Shown: piece after piece, positions 4,682 to 12,193 of the stretch
Layout: each line of letters opens with the position of its first letter
Position numbering within the stretch: the first letter of the stretch is position 1
Virus record (IMG/VR): IMGVR_UViG_3300046011_006455
Coordinates: 1 to 20,289 of that record
Source: a virus
Reading direction: 5' to 3' (one strand)
Length of the DNA stretch: 20,289 nt
Made by a program: the position numbers and the translations under genes
The notes under the pieces: generated by a model
Told to the model about the DNA's origin: nothing
Database searches by the model: none
Seen by the model: the letters and a program-made list of their open reading frames with translations, nothing else

Positions 4682-4871
4682 GACTCCCGGGTGAAATTTA
4701 GAACAACTGCTCCACCTAAATAGATAAGTTAGTGCCGGGAGTCATAAAGGGGTGGGGCGGTTTTTTTGCTGAGTGACCTCGTTAATGAAGTCCCGCCCCA
4801 TAAAGGGTGGGCAGCGGTCGTTTTATTGAACCGTTAAAAATAGGTTCCCGCCGCCCATAACTCATTGGCTG
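4682..4871. repeat. Three tandem nested hairpins linked by CATAAAGGG spacers
   Basis: Unit 1: GACTCCCGG (4682-4690) with CCGGGAGTC (4734-4742), enclosing an inner ATTTAG/CTAAAT stem. Unit 2: TGGGGCGG (4752-4759) with CCGCCCCA (4793-4800), enclosing GACCTC/GAAGTC pairing with one wobble. Unit 3: TGGGCAGCGG with CCGCCGCCCA (about 4807-4857, one mismatch), enclosing GAACC/GGTTC. The units are joined by near-identical linkers, CATAAAGGGG and CATAAAGGG. They lie just after the stop of the small Cys4 gene on the minus strand. Transcript-end processing, termination or part of a larger RNA are all possible. Confidence 0.45.
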
Positions 4872-5116
4872 AAGCTCTTCGGTAGCGCAGCCTTGCGCTT
4901 CATGAACGCCGCGTGGCGCTCTTTCACCCGGCAGCCGCAGGATTTGCTGCTGCCACGGCGCAATGCAATGATTGCAACCCAGCGTTTTGTTCCGCACTCG
5001 CAGACGCACAAGGTCTGACGAATCCGGGTCGTGGCGCTGGTGTGGCGTTCGCCGCCGATGACCTGCCAGCGTCCGTAGCGGGTGCCGGGATCTGGGATGG
5101 GGTGGATGATGCTCAT
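4862..5116 (-). CDS. Small Cys4 (zinc-binding type) phage protein
   Basis: 84 aa from the ATG at 5116, preceded by CAGGAAAAC; an in-frame ATG at 5161 lies in the pentamer array and is rejected. The layout is GTRYGRWQVIGGE (11-23), then LCVCECGTKRW and SSKSCGCRVKERHAAF. The C-x-C-x2-C...S-C-G-C pattern matches a family of small proteins common in phages, with a beta-ribbon that probably binds zinc and DNA and is often fused to or next to HNH/AP2-type proteins. A basic tail follows (MKRKAALPKS). It is the last gene of the recombination block before the structured noncoding stretch. Role unknown; DNA binding is likely. Confidence 0.75.
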   Translation of the reverse strand: MSIIHPIPDPGTRYGRWQVIGGERHTSATTRIRQTLCVCECGTKRWVAIIALRRGSSKSCGCRVKERHAAFMKRKAALPKSFSQ

Positions 5117-5135
5117 GTTTTCCTGTTTCCGTGAT

Positions 5136-5291
5136 TTGCCTGCCTTGCCAATCCGCGCCACGCCTCGCCAGGCCGCGCCTGTCCTGCCTTTCCTCTCCTC
5201 TCCTCGCCACGCCGATCCATGCCGCGCCAGTCCTGCCTTGCCTATCCCGTCCTCGCCCGTCCTCGCCGCGCCATGCCGCGCCTTGCCTGCC
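5136..5291. repeat. Pentamer array A (NNKCC on plus strand)
   Basis: About 30 tandem degenerate pentamers such as GCGCC, ACGCC, TCGCC, TCTCC, ATGCC with an occasional 4-base TGCC. CC recurs every 5 bases, so the transcribed (minus-sense) RNA carries GG every 5 bases. It starts right beyond the stop codon of the 224-aa gene and ends about 20 bp before the next start codon. Frames through it are open only because pentamers lack stops. Confidence 0.85.
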
Positions 5292-5294
5292 TAA

Positions 5295-5969
5295 TTACGC
5301 CGCGATGCCAAAGCTGGCGGCGACTTCGGGGGCTTCGTCATCGGGGACGACGCGGAACGTGCCCCAGCCGCAGCCTGCCGATGATTTGCTGTCGGGCCGA
5401 CCTTCGCAGATGCCGACCTGTAGACCGACACGGGATATGAGGTTAATCACGTCCTGAGCGGTGAATTGGTCAGCGTCGAAGCGCACCTTCAGTTTGCAGG
5501 CCCACTTGGGGTAGATGGGACGGGCGCGCACGTCCACCACGCCGGTGGCATTGCGGGTGTGGCTGGTGTTGGTATGCGAGTCGCCGTAAATGCGGACCAG
5601 CGGGGTAACCATCTCATGGTCGAAGTCGTCCTGGACGATGAAGACCGAGAGTTTGGCCAAGGTCATCTTGAACCCGACCAAGCGGCACGCCGAAATCATC
5701 CCGGCCCTGAAGCCGCTGGCGTTGATGCCTTGCCATTCCTTGGTGCTGTTGTAATACCGGGCCTGATCCGCTTCTTCATCGTAATCACGGGCGCTGCGCT
5801 CCTTCTTGGATTTCGCGCTTTTGCCTTCCGCCATTTTTTGCATTAACTCTGCTTTTTTGCTGAATCGAGCAATCACCAGCGGGGCGGTGCCCTGTATCAG
5901 CACTTCCAGCGTGTTAAACGCCGGGGGCTTGATGACGATGCTTTCGGTTTTGGTTGTTGCGGTTGTCAT
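5295..5969 (-). CDS. Phage recombination-block protein, RAMP/Cas7-like fold suspected
   Basis: 224 aa, start ATG at 5969. I recognise the family as an uncharacterised protein found with phage recombination genes. Three segments recall single-domain RAMP (Cas7/Csm3-like) proteins: an opening strand ending IQGTAPLVI (~25-33), GINASGFRAGMISACRL (~82-98), like the conserved IPGSSLKGALR segment, and a final LISRVGLQVG...SKSSAGCGWGTF (~183-210), like the glycine-rich GG-SRGFGRV loop. A Lys/Glu-rich charged insert (SAKSKKERSARDYDEEAD) lies near 50-67. This would be an RNA- or ssDNA-binding protein acting beside RecT. The gene and family are sure; the fold is inference. Pentamer arrays flank it on both sides. 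Confidence 0.7.
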   Translation of the reverse strand: MTTATTKTESIVIKPPAFNTLEVLIQGTAPLVIARFSKKAELMQKMAEGKSAKSKKERSARDYDEEADQARYYNSTKEWQGINASGFRAGMISACRLVGFKMTLAKLSVFIVQDDFDHEMVTPLVRIYGDSHTNTSHTRNATGVVDVRARPIYPKWACKLKVRFDADQFTAQDVINLISRVGLQVGICEGRPDSKSSAGCGWGTFRVVPDDEAPEVAASFGIAA

Positions 5970-6049
5970 GTATATTTGCCTTTGGTTGTGTTTTTAATGC
6001 CGTGCTGTCACACGGTGTTTGCGCCATCCTTGGCGGGATCGTGTCCTTG

Positions 6050-6215
6050 ATCCGGTCCTGCCTTTCCAATCCTCGCCGCGCCCATCCTCGCCAGGCCCCG
6101 CCTCGCCATGCCTGCCTTGCTTTGCTATGCCCGTCCCTGCCATGCCCGGCCATGCCAAGCCCTGCCTGCCTTGAGGTTGCCTTGCCCCGCCGTGCCGTGC
6201 CGGGCCTAGCCTGCC
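6050..6215. repeat. Pentamer array B
   Basis: About 33 units of the same NNKCC pattern (TCGCC, GCGCC, AGGCC, ATGCC, GTGCC), abutting the stop codon of the 154-aa gene and ending about 80 bp before the start of the 224-aa gene. Same orientation as arrays A and C: pyrimidine-rich plus strand, purine-rich RNA. Confidence 0.85.
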
Positions 6216-6680
6216 TTATGCCGGTTCCGGCGCTCTTTCTTCCGTGGCTTGCTGTACCGCAACGCTGAACTGTTCCAGCGCCTTTCTAACGGGCCTATCC
6301 AGCCAGGCGGTTTGCCGGTTCCAATACGCAATGCGGTTTTTGATGTCGCGTAGCAGTTCGGCCTTTTGGTCCGCGTCATGCATCACGTCATAACTCAGCC
6401 GATAACCGCCACCGTCCTGTAGCCGGTCAGAGGGCAGGCTGACGAAAGCCCGTACCTCGGTATCAGGCCGCGACTCAATGACGATGCGACATTTCGCAAT
6501 CAGTGACCGTGCTTGCCATCGGCGGTAAGCAATCGCCGCCTCGCTGTCGTCCCAGGTGAAGTGCCTATGCAATGGGCTGTCTTCGGACTGTGCCGCTGCC
6601 AGTACCAAATCCACTGTCAACAGCCCTTCGTTTTCTTCCAGCAACTCAGTGAGTGCTTCTTTTTCCTGATCTAGTGCCAT
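6216..6680 (-). CDS. Conserved-type phage early protein, 154 aa
   Basis: The start is the ATG at 6680 (MALDQEKEALTELLEENEGL), preceded by GGAGAC. The frame stays open upstream for another 400 bases, but that part only reads through pentamer array C and is not coding. The protein is acidic and helical, with SPLHRHFTWDDSEAAIAYRRW (split here as SPLHRHFTWDD and SEAAIAYRRWQAR), then VRAFVSLPSDR and a C-terminal helical half. I recognise this arrangement from uncharacterised phage proteins near recombination genes, but know of no activity. Position between recT and the 224-aa gene suggests a role in recombination or replication. Confidence 0.75.
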   Translation of the reverse strand: MALDQEKEALTELLEENEGLLTVDLVLAAAQSEDSPLHRHFTWDDSEAAIAYRRWQARSLIAKCRIVIESRPDTEVRAFVSLPSDRLQDGGGYRLSYDVMHDADQKAELLRDIKNRIAYWNRQTAWLDRPVRKALEQFSVAVQQATEERAPEPA

Positions 6681-6700
6681 TGTTGTCTCCGTTGTTGATA

Positions 6701-7110
6701 ATCCATGCCTGCCTTGCCGCGCCAGTCCCGGCCTTGCCATGCCAGTCCCAGCCTTGCCTGCCTTGCATTGCCCCGCCCGGCCATGCCAAGCCTCGCCTTG
6801 CCTGCCAATCCAATTCGTGCCATACGACGCCTCACCTCGCCACGCCATTCGCCGCCTGCGGCTCCATATCCCTCCTTTCCGCTCCTGTGCGGGCCGAGCC
6901 ATGCCTGCCACTGCGGGCCGCTCCGCTCCGTGCGGTGCCATTCCTTTCCTGCCAATCCTTGCCTTACCAATCCCCGCCACAACTCGCCGCGCCTTGGGGT
7001 GGCCGTGCCTGCCTATCCTCTCCGTGCCGGACCTTTCCCAGCCGCTACTCTCCATGCCAGCCACGACAAACCTATCCAATCCTTACCTAGCGATGACACT
7101 CCATGCCTGC
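6701..7110. repeat. Pentamer array C, the longest
   Basis: About 400 bp, roughly 80 units, more degenerate in the middle (a GC-rich stretch around 6840-6950) but keeping a 5-base beat to the right end (CCTAT, CCAAT, CCTTA). It abuts the recT stop codon and ends about 20 bp before the start of the 154-aa gene. All six frames show repetitive Arg/Gly/Ala- or Pro/Cys/Ala-rich open stretches that are artefacts. Confidence 0.85.
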
Positions 7111-7941
7111 CTATTCAGCAGCCGTGATTTCTCCGGTTGCTTCGTCCACCGATTCCATCATTTCCGCCTGATCCACCACCACAAAATCACCATCCAGCAC
7201 CGAGGCCATGTTTTGATCTCCAAGCTCCGCCTGTCCGTCCAATGCAGCGGCGGTGGCAAACTCGATGGACAAGGGCAGGTATTTGGCCAAGCGGCGGATG
7301 ACGGTCTTGCGGCCCATTTCCGGGTAGTGGTCTTTCCAGGGTCCCCACTGGCCTCTCGATTGCGAGGCGCGCATGACGGCATCCACATCGGATCTCGGCA
7401 TCACCTCAAAGGCATGACCGCCGCCTTTCAGTTTGGCGATGGCATAGAACGCGATGATGTCGCCCCGGTCGCCAGTCATCGCGGGTTTGTGAGTGAGGGA
7501 TTCATGCAAGCCATAGCTGAACTCGAACTCATCAGCGGCGTGGACGGCATGGGCAGCGATGCTTTCGATCTGGCCGGAACGGCGGGCCAAGTCAATCAAT
7601 CCTTTGTATCCCGGAATAAACTGGGCGTCCGTGGTTCCGCTCTTGCGGTTCTTGTACGGCACCAAATAGGCATGGCCGAGTATGGTGTTCGGTTCCAAGC
7701 CCAACTGGCTGGACTGGATCACGGCACCCAGCAGGCTTTTCACACTGCACTCTTGCAAGGCAGGCGTGGTGCGAATGGCGTGCATAGCGATCTTCATCAG
7801 CCGTTCCGGGGTGACGTGCTTGGGTAGCACGGCGGCAATGGCCGATTTGTTGGCCTCAAAAAAAGCCGACACATTGCTGCCGCCCATCTTGTTGGCGGGT
7901 AGGCTGGATTGCTTGCGTAGTTCTGCGATATTCGCTGCCAT
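7111..7941 (-). CDS. recT: RecT-family single-strand annealing protein
   Basis: 276 aa, start ATG at 7941 with GGAG upstream. Typical RecT layout: FFEANKSAIAAVLPKHVTPERLMKIAMHAI (in parts, ~27-57), CSVKSLLGAVIQSSQLGLEPN, GHAYLVPY, QFIPGYKGLIDLARRSG and WKDHYPEMGRKTVIRRLAKYL (shortened here), and an acidic C-terminal tail. It anneals complementary ssDNA exposed by the partner exonuclease and acts in phage recombination in the cytoplasm. The RecE-type exonuclease is directly upstream, 11 bp away, as usual for RecET pairs. The longest pentamer array follows its stop codon. Confidence 0.95.
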   Translation of the reverse strand: MAANIAELRKQSSLPANKMGGSNVSAFFEANKSAIAAVLPKHVTPERLMKIAMHAIRTTPALQECSVKSLLGAVIQSSQLGLEPNTILGHAYLVPYKNRKSGTTDAQFIPGYKGLIDLARRSGQIESIAAHAVHAADEFEFSYGLHESLTHKPAMTGDRGDIIAFYAIAKLKGGGHAFEVMPRSDVDAVMRASQSRGQWGPWKDHYPEMGRKTVIRRLAKYLPLSIEFATAAALDGQAELGDQNMASVLDGDFVVVDQAEMMESVDEATGEITAAE

Positions 7942-7952
7942 GATGTTCTCCG

Positions 7953-8711
7953 TTAAATAAATGGAAGTTCAAGTGGTTGAATGGCCAGGTCATAGCCGGG
8001 GAAAGTGCCAGCCTCGGCGCATTGGTGGTATTGCCAAACGAGGCTGTTGTACTTGTCTTGGAAAGCCGCAAGCTGATCCACGCCCAACTCATACAAGGCC
8101 ACCAGATAGGGCGCGTTTTTCTCAACAGCCAGAAACACCATCGTTTCGATTTCCAGCCCATGCGCCTGCCAGCCGGTGCGGTAATGCACGTCCTGAATGC
8201 CATAGCCGAGCTTGGCAAATTGGCGCGCAAATTCACGCGGCCCTGCGTCTACCGTGGTTTTAACGTCAATCAGCGCATTCAGTCGGGGATTGACGGCATC
8301 GGCTCGCGCCTTGCACGGTAGGCCGGTGGCTTCATCGGTCCAGAAGGCGGATTGCTCAGTGATCGCACCCGTCAGCAATTCGCGGGCGGTTGGATTGGCC
8401 CAGACGGCATCGCGCATCCGGTGGGCCTGATCCATGTCAGTCAGCTTTACCAGTTCGCGGCCTTCGGCGGCTTCCTCGGCTTCAGCCCAGGCTTTGGTAC
8501 CGCGTCGGTCCACGCTGGTGGCCTGATAGCGCGTGTCGAGTTCGTCCGGCTCCAAGATGGCGCAATGAACCAGACTGCCCAGCACCATCGCGGCGGTTTC
8601 CTCGCGGCTGACATGGGCCAGCGCAGGCACTTTGGCGAAGGCCTTGAGGGTGGACGCATTCAGGGCAGGGCGGCTGAAGTAGTCTTCTGCCGGGATGTTT
8701 TCAATCGCCAT
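7953..8711 (-). CDS. RecE-type 5'-3' exonuclease (PD-(D/E)XK, DUF3799-like)
   Basis: 252 aa from the ATG at 8711, corresponding to the C-terminal nuclease part of RecE rather than the long E. coli protein. N-terminus PAEDYFSRPALNASTLKAF, then H49 in GSLVHCAILEP, D138 in KARADAV, and D149 and K151 in LIDVKTT, the metal-binding core; the helix following GYGIQDVHYRTG matches RecE/YqaJ-type nucleases. It would resect dsDNA ends to give 3' overhangs for RecT. It overlaps the upstream coiled-coil gene by 11 bp and lies next to recT. Confidence 0.9.
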   Translation of the reverse strand: MAIENIPAEDYFSRPALNASTLKAFAKVPALAHVSREETAAMVLGSLVHCAILEPDELDTRYQATSVDRRGTKAWAEAEEAAEGRELVKLTDMDQAHRMRDAVWANPTARELLTGAITEQSAFWTDEATGLPCKARADAVNPRLNALIDVKTTVDAGPREFARQFAKLGYGIQDVHYRTGWQAHGLEIETMVFLAVEKNAPYLVALYELGVDQLAAFQDKYNSLVWQYHQCAEAGTFPGYDLAIQPLELPFI

Positions 8712-9511: not shown

Positions 9512-9540
9512 ATAATAAAACCAAGGTAATGACATGTCAA
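9512..9540 (-). promoter_or_regulatory. Leftward early promoter (pL-like)
   Basis: On the minus strand, TTGACA (9540-9535), 17-bp spacer, TATTAT (9517-9512): a near-consensus sigma-70 promoter. Transcription would begin near 9505, 34 bases before the first start codon. Operator copy 1 (9517-9530) lies in its spacer. Confidence 0.75.
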
Positions 9541-9552
9541 CACCAAGGTAAT
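9517..9552. promoter_or_regulatory. OL-like operator pair
   Basis: Two copies of a 14-mer ending ACCAAGGTAAT: AAAACCAAGGTAAT (9517-9530) and AACACCAAGGTAAT (9539-9552), 22 bp apart, two helical turns. The same motif occurs three times between cI and cro. Between the two copies lies the palindrome TGACATGTCA (9530-9539), formed by the two -35 boxes. Confidence 0.7.
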
Positions 9553-9557
9553 ATAAT
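9529..9557 (+). promoter_or_regulatory. Rightward promoter for the helicase-methyltransferase
   Basis: ATGACA (9529-9534), 17-bp spacer, perfect TATAAT (9552-9557). Operator copy 2 fills the spacer. Start near 9564; the gene starts at 9593 behind AAGGAGACAAGCG. Confidence 0.75.
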
Positions 9558-9592: not shown

Positions 9593-12193
9593 ATGAACTA
9601 CGAGGAATTTCTAAAGGCCAAGGTGCCGATGGCGGTGGAGGATCAGGAAACGACGCAGATGCCGGTGCATCCGATCCTGAAAGCGCATCAGGTGGATATT
9701 GTCCGGTGGGCGGTCAAGCGGGGCAGGGCGGCTATCTTTGCCAGTTTTGGCCTGGGCAAATCTGTCATGCAGATTGAAATAGTGAAGGCTTGCCTGAAGC
9801 AGACCGAAGGCGGCAAGGGCTTGATTGTGGCCCCGCTGGGCGTCCGTGGCGAGTTTCGTCGGGATGCCGCGATGCTGGGGGAATCCATCACCTTCATCCG
9901 CTCCACCGAAGAGGCGACCGGGCCGGGACTGTATATCACTAACTACGAAAGCGTCCGCGATGGCAAGTTGGACCCGCGAGCGTTTGAGGCAACTTCACTT
10001 GATGAAGCGGCTTGCCTACGTGGCTTTGGGGCCACCAAGACGTTCCGCGAGTTTATGCGGCTGTTTGAGGGCGTCCGCTATAAGTTCGTGGCCACGGCCA
10101 CGCCGAGTCCGAATGAGTTCATCGAGCTATTGGCCTATTCGGCCTATCTGGAAGTGATGGATGTCGGGGAAGCGAAGACTCGATTCTTTAAGCGCGACTC
10201 CACCAAGGCCGACCAGTTGACCATACACCCGCATAAGGAACGCGAGTTCTGGTTGTGGGTAGCATCCTGGGGCATATTTCTGCAACGACCGTCTGACTTG
10301 GGCCACGATGATACCGGCTACGCTTTGCCGCCGATGCTCGTCCATTATCACGAGGTAGAGGTAGACCAGTCCGAAGCGCATCCGAATCAATGGGGGCAGT
10401 TTCAGTTATTCCGGGAAGCGACTGGCGGCATTGTGGAAGCCGCACGGGAAAAACGCGAGACGCTGGACACCCGCGTGGCGGCTGTGGCCGATATTCTGGC
10501 CGATATGCGGAATCCTGATGGCACGCTTCAAGATCAGGTGGTGATTTGGTGTGACCTCAACGACGAGCAGAAGGCGCTGGAAAAGATGCTGAAAGAAGGC
10601 GGCTACAGCTTTTCCAGCCTCTACGGCAATCAACCTATCGACCTCCGCGAAACGCTACTGGATGACTGGCGTGAACGGCGGACGGCGGTCTTTCTTAGCA
10701 AGCCGGTCATGTACGGGGCCGGGATCAACATGCAGCAATGTCACACGATGATCTTTGCCGGGGTCGGCTACAAGTTTGCCGACTTCATCCAGGGCGTGCA
10801 TCGCGTTTACCGCTTTCTGCAAGCGCACCCGGTCAATCTGCATATCGTCCATGCCGAATCAGAACGGCAAGTGCTGCGCATCCTTCAAGACAAGTGGACT
10901 AGACATAATCAAACGGTGGACACCATGAGCGAAATCATTAAGGAATACGGATTAACCACGGCTGGCATGCGTGAAGCGTTGCAGAGGCAAATGGGCGTGG
11001 AACGGGTGGAAGTGACCGGCAAGGGCTGGACAGCGGTCAATAATGACTGCGTGATTGAGACGGGGCGCATGGCGGAAAACAGTGTCGATTTGATCCTCAC
11101 CAGCATCCCGTTTTCCACCCAGTACGAATACAGCCCGAGTTATCACGACTTTGGTCACACGGACTCCAATCAGCACTTCTTTGAGCAGATGGATTACCTG
11201 ACGCCAAACCTGTTGCGCGTATTGCAACCGGGGCGCATGGCAGCGATCCATGTCAAGGATCGGATTGTTCCCGGTGGTTTGACCGGGCTAGGATTCCAGA
11301 CGGTGTACCCGTTCCACATGGACACCATCAACCACTACACCAAGCACGGCTTCGCCTATATGGGCATGGTGACGATTGTCACCGATGTAGTGCGGGAAAA
11401 TAACCAGACCTATCGGCTCGGCTGGTCTGAACAATGCAAGGACGCAACAAAAATGGGCGTGGGAATGCCGGAATACCTGCTGCTGTTCCGCAAGCCGCCG
11501 ACCAGTAATGAAAACAGCTACTCCGACAAACCGGCCAAAAAGAGCAAGCCGAATTGTATTGATGACGATGGAAACGAGATCCCCTTCGACCTCTATAAGC
11601 CGATTAAACCCGGCACCGGCTACAGTCGCGCCCGATGGCAGTTAGACGCGCATGGCTTTCAGCGATCCAGTGGCGACCGGCTATTGATGCCGGAAGAGTT
11701 GAGCAACCTGGCACACGATGTCATCTTCAAGCTGTTCCGCGATTACAGCATGACGACCATCTATGACTATGAGCATCACGTGAAGATTGGCGAAAGCCTG
11801 GAAGGGGAGATGCGGCTCCCGACCTCTTTTATGCTGTTGCAGCCGCAATCGTCCAATGGGCATGTCTGGACCGATGTGACACGCATGCGAACCTTGAACG
11901 GCAACCAATACAGCAAGGGTCAGCAGATGCACTTATGCCCGATGCAGTTTGATATAGCCGACCGGGTGATTGATCGCTTGACCATGCCGGGTGAAACCGT
12001 GTTGGACCCTTTCGGTGGGCTGATGACAGTGCCTTACCGGGCCGTGCTGAAGGGCCGCAAGGGCTACGGGATCGAACTGAGTCCTAGCTATTTCTTTGAC
12101 GGGGTAGGCTACTGCAAGGCGGCTGAAGAGCAGATGGCGACTCCCTCGCTGTTTGATACCTTTGAGGATGAATCGGAGATGGAAGCGGCTTAA
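9593..12193 (+). CDS. SF2 helicase - DNA methyltransferase fusion
   Basis: 866 aa, AAGGAG before the ATG. Residues 1-450 are a superfamily-2 helicase: Walker A FGLGKS (52-57), DEAA box (137-140, in place of DEAD/DEAH), ATATPSP (167-173) and motif VI QGVHRVYRF (400-408). Residues ~475-850 are a beta-order N6-adenine/N4-cytosine methyltransferase: catalytic motif IV is TSIPFSTQYEYSP (503-515), with SIPF instead of (D/N/S)PP(Y/F), followed by the SAM-binding motif I VLDPFGGLMTVP (803-814). This large family is frequent in phages and mobile elements; I know no proven substrate. It may protect phage DNA from restriction as the helicase-methyltransferase DarB of P1 is thought to do, though homology to DarB is not shown. 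Expression is under the predicted OL-like operators. Confidence 0.9.
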   Translation: MNYEEFLKAKVPMAVEDQETTQMPVHPILKAHQVDIVRWAVKRGRAAIFASFGLGKSVMQIEIVKACLKQTEGGKGLIVAPLGVRGEFRRDAAMLGESITFIRSTEEATGPGLYITNYESVRDGKLDPRAFEATSLDEAACLRGFGATKTFREFMRLFEGVRYKFVATATPSPNEFIELLAYSAYLEVMDVGEAKTRFFKRDSTKADQLTIHPHKEREFWLWVASWGIFLQRPSDLGHDDTGYALPPMLVHYHEVEVDQSEAHPNQWGQFQLFREATGGIVEAAREKRETLDTRVAAVADILADMRNPDGTLQDQVVIWCDLNDEQKALEKMLKEGGYSFSSLYGNQPIDLRETLLDDWRERRTAVFLSKPVMYGAGINMQQCHTMIFAGVGYKFADFIQGVHRVYRFLQAHPVNLHIVHAESERQVLRILQDKWTRHNQTVDTMSEIIKEYGLTTAGMREALQRQMGVERVEVTGKGWTAVNNDCVIETGRMAENSVDLILTSIPFSTQYEYSPSYHDFGHTDSNQHFFEQMDYLTPNLLRVLQPGRMAAIHVKDRIVPGGLTGLGFQTVYPFHMDTINHYTKHGFAYMGMVTIVTDVVRENNQTYRLGWSEQCKDATKMGVGMPEYLLLFRKPPTSNENSYSDKPAKKSKPNCIDDDGNEIPFDLYKPIKPGTGYSRARWQLDAHGFQRSSGDRLLMPEELSNLAHDVIFKLFRDYSMTTIYDYEHHVKIGESLEGEMRLPTSFMLLQPQSSNGHVWTDVTRMRTLNGNQYSKGQQMHLCPMQFDIADRVIDRLTMPGETVLDPFGGLMTVPYRAVLKGRKGYGIELSPSYFFDGVGYCKAAEEQMATPSLFDTFEDESEMEAA

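Follow-up and report, generated by a model that had tools for sequence, protein, structure and literature searches.

The stretch of DNA analysed here (the window) is a complete IMG/VR record of 20,289 bases (IMGVR_UViG_3300046011_006455). Between the genes of its recombination operon lie three arrays with a five-base beat, which are very probably vrRNA guide cassettes of a VIPR system in a temperate phage, judging from their sequence, a predicted protein structure and analogy with the one such system described. A 2026 preprint (PMC13142463) describes VIPR as a phage-encoded system that combines a small RAMP protein named Vipr with vrRNAs built from tandem GGY/NN units; the NN pairs of these RNAs recognise double-stranded DNA (dsDNA), skipping one base per unit. 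Binding of dsDNA by the complex is reported there for SUSP1, an Escherichia phage, and the main text names satellites and lysogeny regulators as targets. This preprint was the only relevant item found in the literature on intergenic pentanucleotide or 5-bp repeats in phages. The kind of system is already known; what the window suggests as new is an aim at the recombination cassettes of rival phages, possibly in a reciprocal manner.

Array structure and the vipr locus

The arrays and the two genes between them are as follows (the RNA strand is the minus strand, and NNKCC on the plus strand reads GGMNN in the RNA).

5136-5291, minus strand: array 1, three modules
6050-6215, minus strand: array 2, three modules
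6700-7111, minus strand: array 3, about eight complete GGM-NN modules with GGCA-type punctuation, several anchors decayed
5295-5969, minus strand: Vipr homologue, 224 aa, phrog_4652, predicted Cas7/Csm3-like RAMP fold
6216-6680, minus strand: 154-aa gene, phrog_15946, candidate accessory protein (vap), with homologues beside Vipr homologues

The initial annotation, which had placed three arrays in a single orientation at gene boundaries, is correct in coordinates, strand and placement. Four leftward genes, recT, the 154-aa gene, the 224-aa gene and an 84-aa HNH-like gene, follow one another here, and one array lies in each of the three gaps between them. The first GGCA of array 3 (7111-7108) overlaps the RecT TAG stop codon by its first G, array 2 directly follows the TAA stop of the 154-aa gene, and 3 nt separate array 1 from the TAA of the 224-aa gene; each array ends about 20-80 nt upstream of the following start codon. 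The five-base beat that had been proposed for comparison with shuffled controls is evident as autocorrelation of CC at lag 5, which reaches 27, 25 and 47 in arrays 1-3 against shuffle means of 7.1, 9.2 and 14.7 (z = 8.8, 6.0 and 9.4; 1000 dinucleotide-preserving shuffles each). The highest values among the 1000 shuffles (15, 18 and 25) are below the observed value in every array, lags 3, 4 and 6 are not raised, and the signal is absent from all other stretches of the window. Spurious long open reading frames cross the arrays on both strands within 4782-7941 (for example 6216-7079 on the minus strand and 6739-7827 on the plus strand) because GC-rich DNA of period 5 lacks stop codons, and automatic annotation could call genes there.

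On the minus strand a unit opens with GG, has C or A (rarely U) as its third base and ends with NN. After every 7-10 such units the beat is broken by one of only 4 nt, nearly always GGCA, so that each array is a chain of modules; the plain five-base array of the initial annotation is therefore real in its beat but is refined by this break. The window contains approximately 14 modules of 7-10 units each, in which GG is kept in about 94% of units and the third anchor base is C in 62% and A in 31%. The anchors of arrays 1 and 2 are nearly perfect. Among 123 arrays from 104 loci, GGCA is again the commonest 4-nt unit, with 300 cases, the lengths of real modules have their peak at 8-12 units, the anchor positions are G (85%), G (89%) and C (81%, with A in 7.5%), and the two NN positions have near-maximal entropies of 1.97 and 1.99 bits. 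The delimiter varies by lineage: longer punctuation (e.g. CGCAA GGC(A/C) GGCA) is seen in two relatives, L014 (7135-7706) and L015 (7213-8315).

These arrays travel with vipr. A phrog_4652 protein is encoded in 36/50 viral records retrieved by the array pattern alone and in 2/49 control records retrieved by an unrelated RecT-like recombinase. All 116 arrays found within 4 kb of a Vipr homologue (91 loci) share its strand, at a median distance of 72 bp. The suggestion that the same array be sought in other phages together with its gene context has thus led to vipr as the usual neighbour, and the view that the arrays are non-coding, of one orientation and under selection at the RNA level is supported.

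The 224-aa gene is a Vipr homologue, based on sequence and modelled structure, and its product a predicted small RAMP. Both this protein (3.3e-19) and Vipr of SUSP1 (1.4e-96) match phrog_4652, and the two align to each other in hhalign (95%, E-value: 3.5e-8); SUSP1 Vipr was taken to be L150:28474-29061 by its size, its adjacency to intergenic GGY/NN tracts and the description in the preprint. The predicted structure of the 224-aa protein (mean pLDDT 78) is matched by Csm3/Cas7 RAMPs (Foldseek best E-value: 7.9e-5; VIA Z 10.3, root-mean-square deviation 3.6 over 151 residues). The 154-aa gene appears to be a conserved partner of Vipr and is a candidate vap: its homologues occur in about 60 loci of the set and adjoin the Vipr homologues of Mycobacterium phage Saal and Cyanophage Cy-LDV1. 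Its protein is modelled well (pLDDT 90), and a fold search gives no significant match; the weak winged-helix rows (Z about 5) are no evidence of function.

The locus can be compared with three groups of systems. Like SUSP1 VIPR (type II), it has a Vipr of the same PHROG, same-strand tandem GG/NN units flanking vipr, an accessory gene adjoining vipr and putative targets that suit the one-base-skip code. It differs in that the third anchor base is C or A rather than a pyrimidine, the anchor GGM being a related consensus; the partner is phrog_15946 rather than phrog_5926; the targets found are recombinase genes; and chains of 7-10-unit guides are split only by GGCA, with no structured tail per guide seen. 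Because the modules are separated only by this 4-nt unit, with no conserved 3' tail, the locus is not filed as type II. The loci of Mycobacterium phages of the Saal group and of Cyanophage Cy-LDV1 also resemble it, with a Vipr homologue, a phrog_15946-type neighbour and GGC-NN arrays with GGCA punctuation, but their NN content is different and their anchors are almost always GGC; the proteins are annotated there only as hypothetical and the arrays are unannotated. With type III CRISPR-Cas the window shares the predicted RAMP fold of Csm3/Cas7, but pairing there is with a contiguous spacer and not with gapped NN pairs. The arrays consist of 5-nt units in modules and not of near-identical long repeats alternating with spacers, no cas gene is above cut-off in Pfam, NCBIfam and PADLOC scans of the proteins of the locus, and an Rfam search of the region gives nothing close to the gathering score.

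NN pairs and their putative targets

Comparison with two related loci, L010 and L011, shows how the NN pairs behave. L010 is very close to the window (Vipr 99% identical, accessory protein 98%), and NN identity between the two is at chance (mean 0.29), with GG kept. L011 is more distant (Vipr 80%). L010 and L011 have two modules in common, in which the NN letters agree throughout (14/14) but 2-4 of the 7 units have a different third anchor base. As NN is unchanged where the third anchor base changes, NN carries information.

The composition of 2387 NN pairs is closest to that of codon positions 1-2 (Kullback-Leibler divergence [KL] 0.072 bits, r 0.73), and this model wins in 500/500 bootstraps of modules. 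Positions 2-3 and 3-1, reverse complements and genome dinucleotides fit more poorly (KL 0.12-0.39); the best fit of all is obtained when sense pairs make up about 65% and antisense pairs 35% (KL 0.042). This composition fits a rule in which one base, the wobble base, is skipped, as PMC13142463 predicts. Together with the in-frame matches given below, it indicates in silico that NN pairs specify DNA targets with one, mostly wobble, base skipped.

In a first target scan, of approximately 1.2 Mb from viral loci that were mostly unrelated, matches were not in excess at any skip; the signal emerged once phages related to the window were included. The first scan with hits was blind and compared 55 modules from the window and its nearest relatives with 1.5 Mb. 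Its only 18/18 match at skip 1 is between guide 1 of L011 and locus L168. This guide and the first guide of the window are as follows.

L011 guide 1: CT GT CC AA GA TA CA GG AA; in-frame site in L168, CTG GTT CCA AAA GAA TAT CAA GGC AAC
7063-7107, minus strand: module w3m1, the first guide of the window, AT GT AT TA AA TT TA TT GT; putative target, the MVMQNLYLV site of phrog_561 RecT-like genes

The target gene in L168 encodes a 231-aa RecT-like protein (phrog_561) and adjoins a YqaJ exonuclease gene. The window phage and L168 are sisters, with CI 100% identical and 97-98% DNA identity across about 3 kb, and their recombination cassettes differ. Five more alleles score 18/18 to the L011 guide despite differing third codon bases and illustrate wobble tolerance, but they are not independent matches, having been retrieved as homologues. 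The RecT-like gene of L011 itself reads MVPREFQGN at the site and is only 14/18 to its own guide. No perfect match was found for shuffled modules at any skip or for real modules at skip 0 or 2; perfect matches at skip 3 were rejected as arrays matching themselves. When wobble is scored, 10/36 modules have a deficit of at most one at skip 1, compared with 3-4/36 at other skips and 6/72 of the shuffled modules.

Other guides also point to recombinase genes. A guide of L010 is directed at the RecT-like motif of L011 guide 1 but suits a different allele, scoring 17/18 in L198. In a focused scan of sister and rival phages, guide 2 of L011 matches the start codon region of the window recT gene, with 16/16 in its first eight units and 17/18 over nine. 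Module w3m1 scores 16/18 in frame in L168, L181 and L182 and 17/18 in L227, and MVMQNLYLV is its best site in most of the RecT-like loci fetched; both of its mismatches in L168 set a U of the guide against a C of the site, which on the target strand would give G-U pairing. Random guides assembled from real NN units reach the observed score in the same gene in 0/3000 trials for L011 guide 1, L011 guide 2 and the L010 guide in L198, and for w3m1 in 1/3000 (L168) and 0/3000 (L227), figures that are per guide-gene pair and uncorrected for how many modules and genes were tried. As these guides have coding-strand sequence, their pairing partner could be template DNA and not mRNA.

Two loci, L184 (record G456) and L197 (record G469), encode both a phrog_561 RecT-like gene and a Vipr homologue, and the RecT-like gene of L184 is 18/18 to the L011 guide. 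L011 has about ten or more guide modules at 2102-2720. For one module in common with L010 (GA AT TA GC .. AA GT GT) the DNA scanned contains no target, and a 22-base guide pattern of L010 has no match in IMG/VR.

One further module of the window gave an exact match.

5238-5287, minus strand: module w1m1, AA GC AT GC GA CG GA CG TA AA; exact 9-unit in-frame match to a phage helicase gene of L178

The second IMG/VR match of w1m1 (L179) is out of codon phase in the likely gene and was taken as chance. It suggests that chance hits are to be expected in this collection, and therefore the helicase match may be chance as well. Other hits of window guides with two mismatches (L170, L239) were set aside as having no convincing frame.

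Alternative explanations

Several observations weigh against guide cassettes. An identified target is wanting for about 12/14 modules of the window. A scan of 348 modules against 2.6 Mb shows no excess at skip 1, with an array detector that missed the modules with RecT-like targets; perhaps the DNA scanned was not from the rivals of these phages. Among 399 bacterial genomes from the order to which Azohydromonas belongs, none has an exact match to an 18-base window guide. The matches in L181-L185, L198 and L227 are not independent of the one in L168, since these loci were fetched as homologues of the target gene. No structured 3' tail of the SUSP1 kind is seen on any module, where only the 4-nt GGCA intervenes, and array 3 may be partly inactive, as several of its anchors are not GG. 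These decayed anchors and missing targets would also suit a remnant, a former VIPR system whose arrays are no longer used. This is improbable, given that Vipr is intact and conserved, that arrays 1 and 2 have kept their anchors, and that w3m1 matches a widespread gene of rivals.

The initial annotation was right to take the arrays as non-coding and of one orientation, and of its two levels of selection, DNA or RNA, the RNA level is supported, but none of the three mechanisms that it offered (recombination hotspots, quadruplexes and a CsrA sponge) is supported. Degenerate repeats could act at recombination boundaries as short homologies or preferred RecT/exonuclease substrates for module exchange, and the arrays do adjoin recT and sit at gene boundaries, in a slot whose cargo varies among other phages. 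The arrays, however, follow vipr and its strand rather than recT, and their NN content is specific, being kept in shared modules and matching in-frame targets at skip 1; such a boundary function is highly improbable, and ordinary repeats or hotspots in general are very unlikely. With GG every five bases, the transcribed strand might affect mRNA stability or translation, either as a G-rich RNA element (a two-layer quadruplex) or as a sponge that binds CsrA or another regulator with affinity for GGA. Either would require functional GG and free NN, yet it is NN that is conserved where the third anchor base varies, and that base is mostly C, GGA being found in only 39/124 units of the window and A at the third position in 7.5% overall. 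There is hardly any probability left for these RNA elements. Complementarity to coding genes would suit guides that act as antisense RNAs on the mRNA of rivals as well as guides that act on DNA, and about a third of the NN composition looks antisense. As all clear matches are in the sense orientation, with the guide identical to the mRNA and able to pair only with the template DNA strand, action on mRNA is also most improbable. VIPR guide cassettes remain the preferred explanation.

Recombination operon and proposed model

The remaining genes of the region are as follows.

7111-7941, minus strand: RecT recombinase, phrog_148 (Pfam RecT E-value: 1.6e-51; PHROG E-value: 7.7e-83), its start codon region matched by an L011 guide
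7953-8711, minus strand: ExoVIII-like exonuclease of the recombination operon (phrog_412 E-value: 8.7e-73; NCBIfam)
4862-5116, minus strand: 84-aa HNH-like gene bounding the VIPR slot (phrog_374 E-value: 4.9e-9)

A consensus promoter at 9540-9512 (minus strand), found by pattern match only, could drive the leftward operon. At 9512-9557, where the operon and a helicase-methylase gene start divergently, one promoter-like site on each strand overlaps the other. The helicase-methylase gene (9593-12193) encodes an 866-aa protein with helicase and N6/N4 DNA methylase domains. Homologues of the HNH-like gene are present in L181, L182, L169 and L010, phages with other slot cargo among them. L181 and L182 have RecT-like genes to which these guides match, and between the recombinase and the HNH-like gene they carry other cargo and no VIPR, so the VIPR locus is one of several cargoes in a variable slot. 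This cargo is a 245-aa protein of unknown function in L181 (5705-6442) and unannotated DNA in L182 (5350-6230).

The proposed model, which draws on analogy with PMC13142463, is as follows. The arrays would be transcribed leftward with the recombination operon to give an RNA of GGM-NN units, in which GGCA punctuates successive guides of about 7-10 units and may be the site of processing. Vipr, as a small Cas7-like RAMP, would oligomerise along this RNA, keeping the GGM anchors unpaired and presenting NN. Pairing with dsDNA would be through the NN letters, so that one target base in three, usually at the codon wobble position, is passed over. The bound complex would then block transcription of a gene of a rival phage, and several guides in this phage group may address rival recombinase genes. 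From transcription and complex formation to repression and a benefit in competition between phages, these steps are what we infer for the window from the described system.

Phages of this group have alternative recombination cassettes, either ExoVIII with a phrog_148 RecT or YqaJ with a phrog_561 RecT-like protein. The guides suggest a reciprocal pattern, in which those of L011 are directed against the RecT-like gene of the sister phage and the window-type recT, those of the window and L010 against phrog_561, and the L011 allele escapes the guide of L011 itself by four mismatches (14/18). The evidence leans slightly towards phages of one group silencing each other's recombinase in this way by means of VIPR guides, in an array format of GGCA-punctuated guide chains without tails.

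VIPR has so far rested on one preprint. From sequence alone, the window locus agrees with its main claims, namely a RAMP with a repeat RNA, hypervariable NN and a wobble-skipping code, here with a different array format and in a different phage group. It also names concrete natural targets in the form of rival recombinase genes. Such systems can be found simply by looking for GG arrays of period 5 that share their strand with a phrog_4652 gene, and the slot of L181 and L182 is a possible place to seek further systems acting between phages. A question about phage mosaicism also becomes testable: whether phages police which recombination cassette works in a shared cell.
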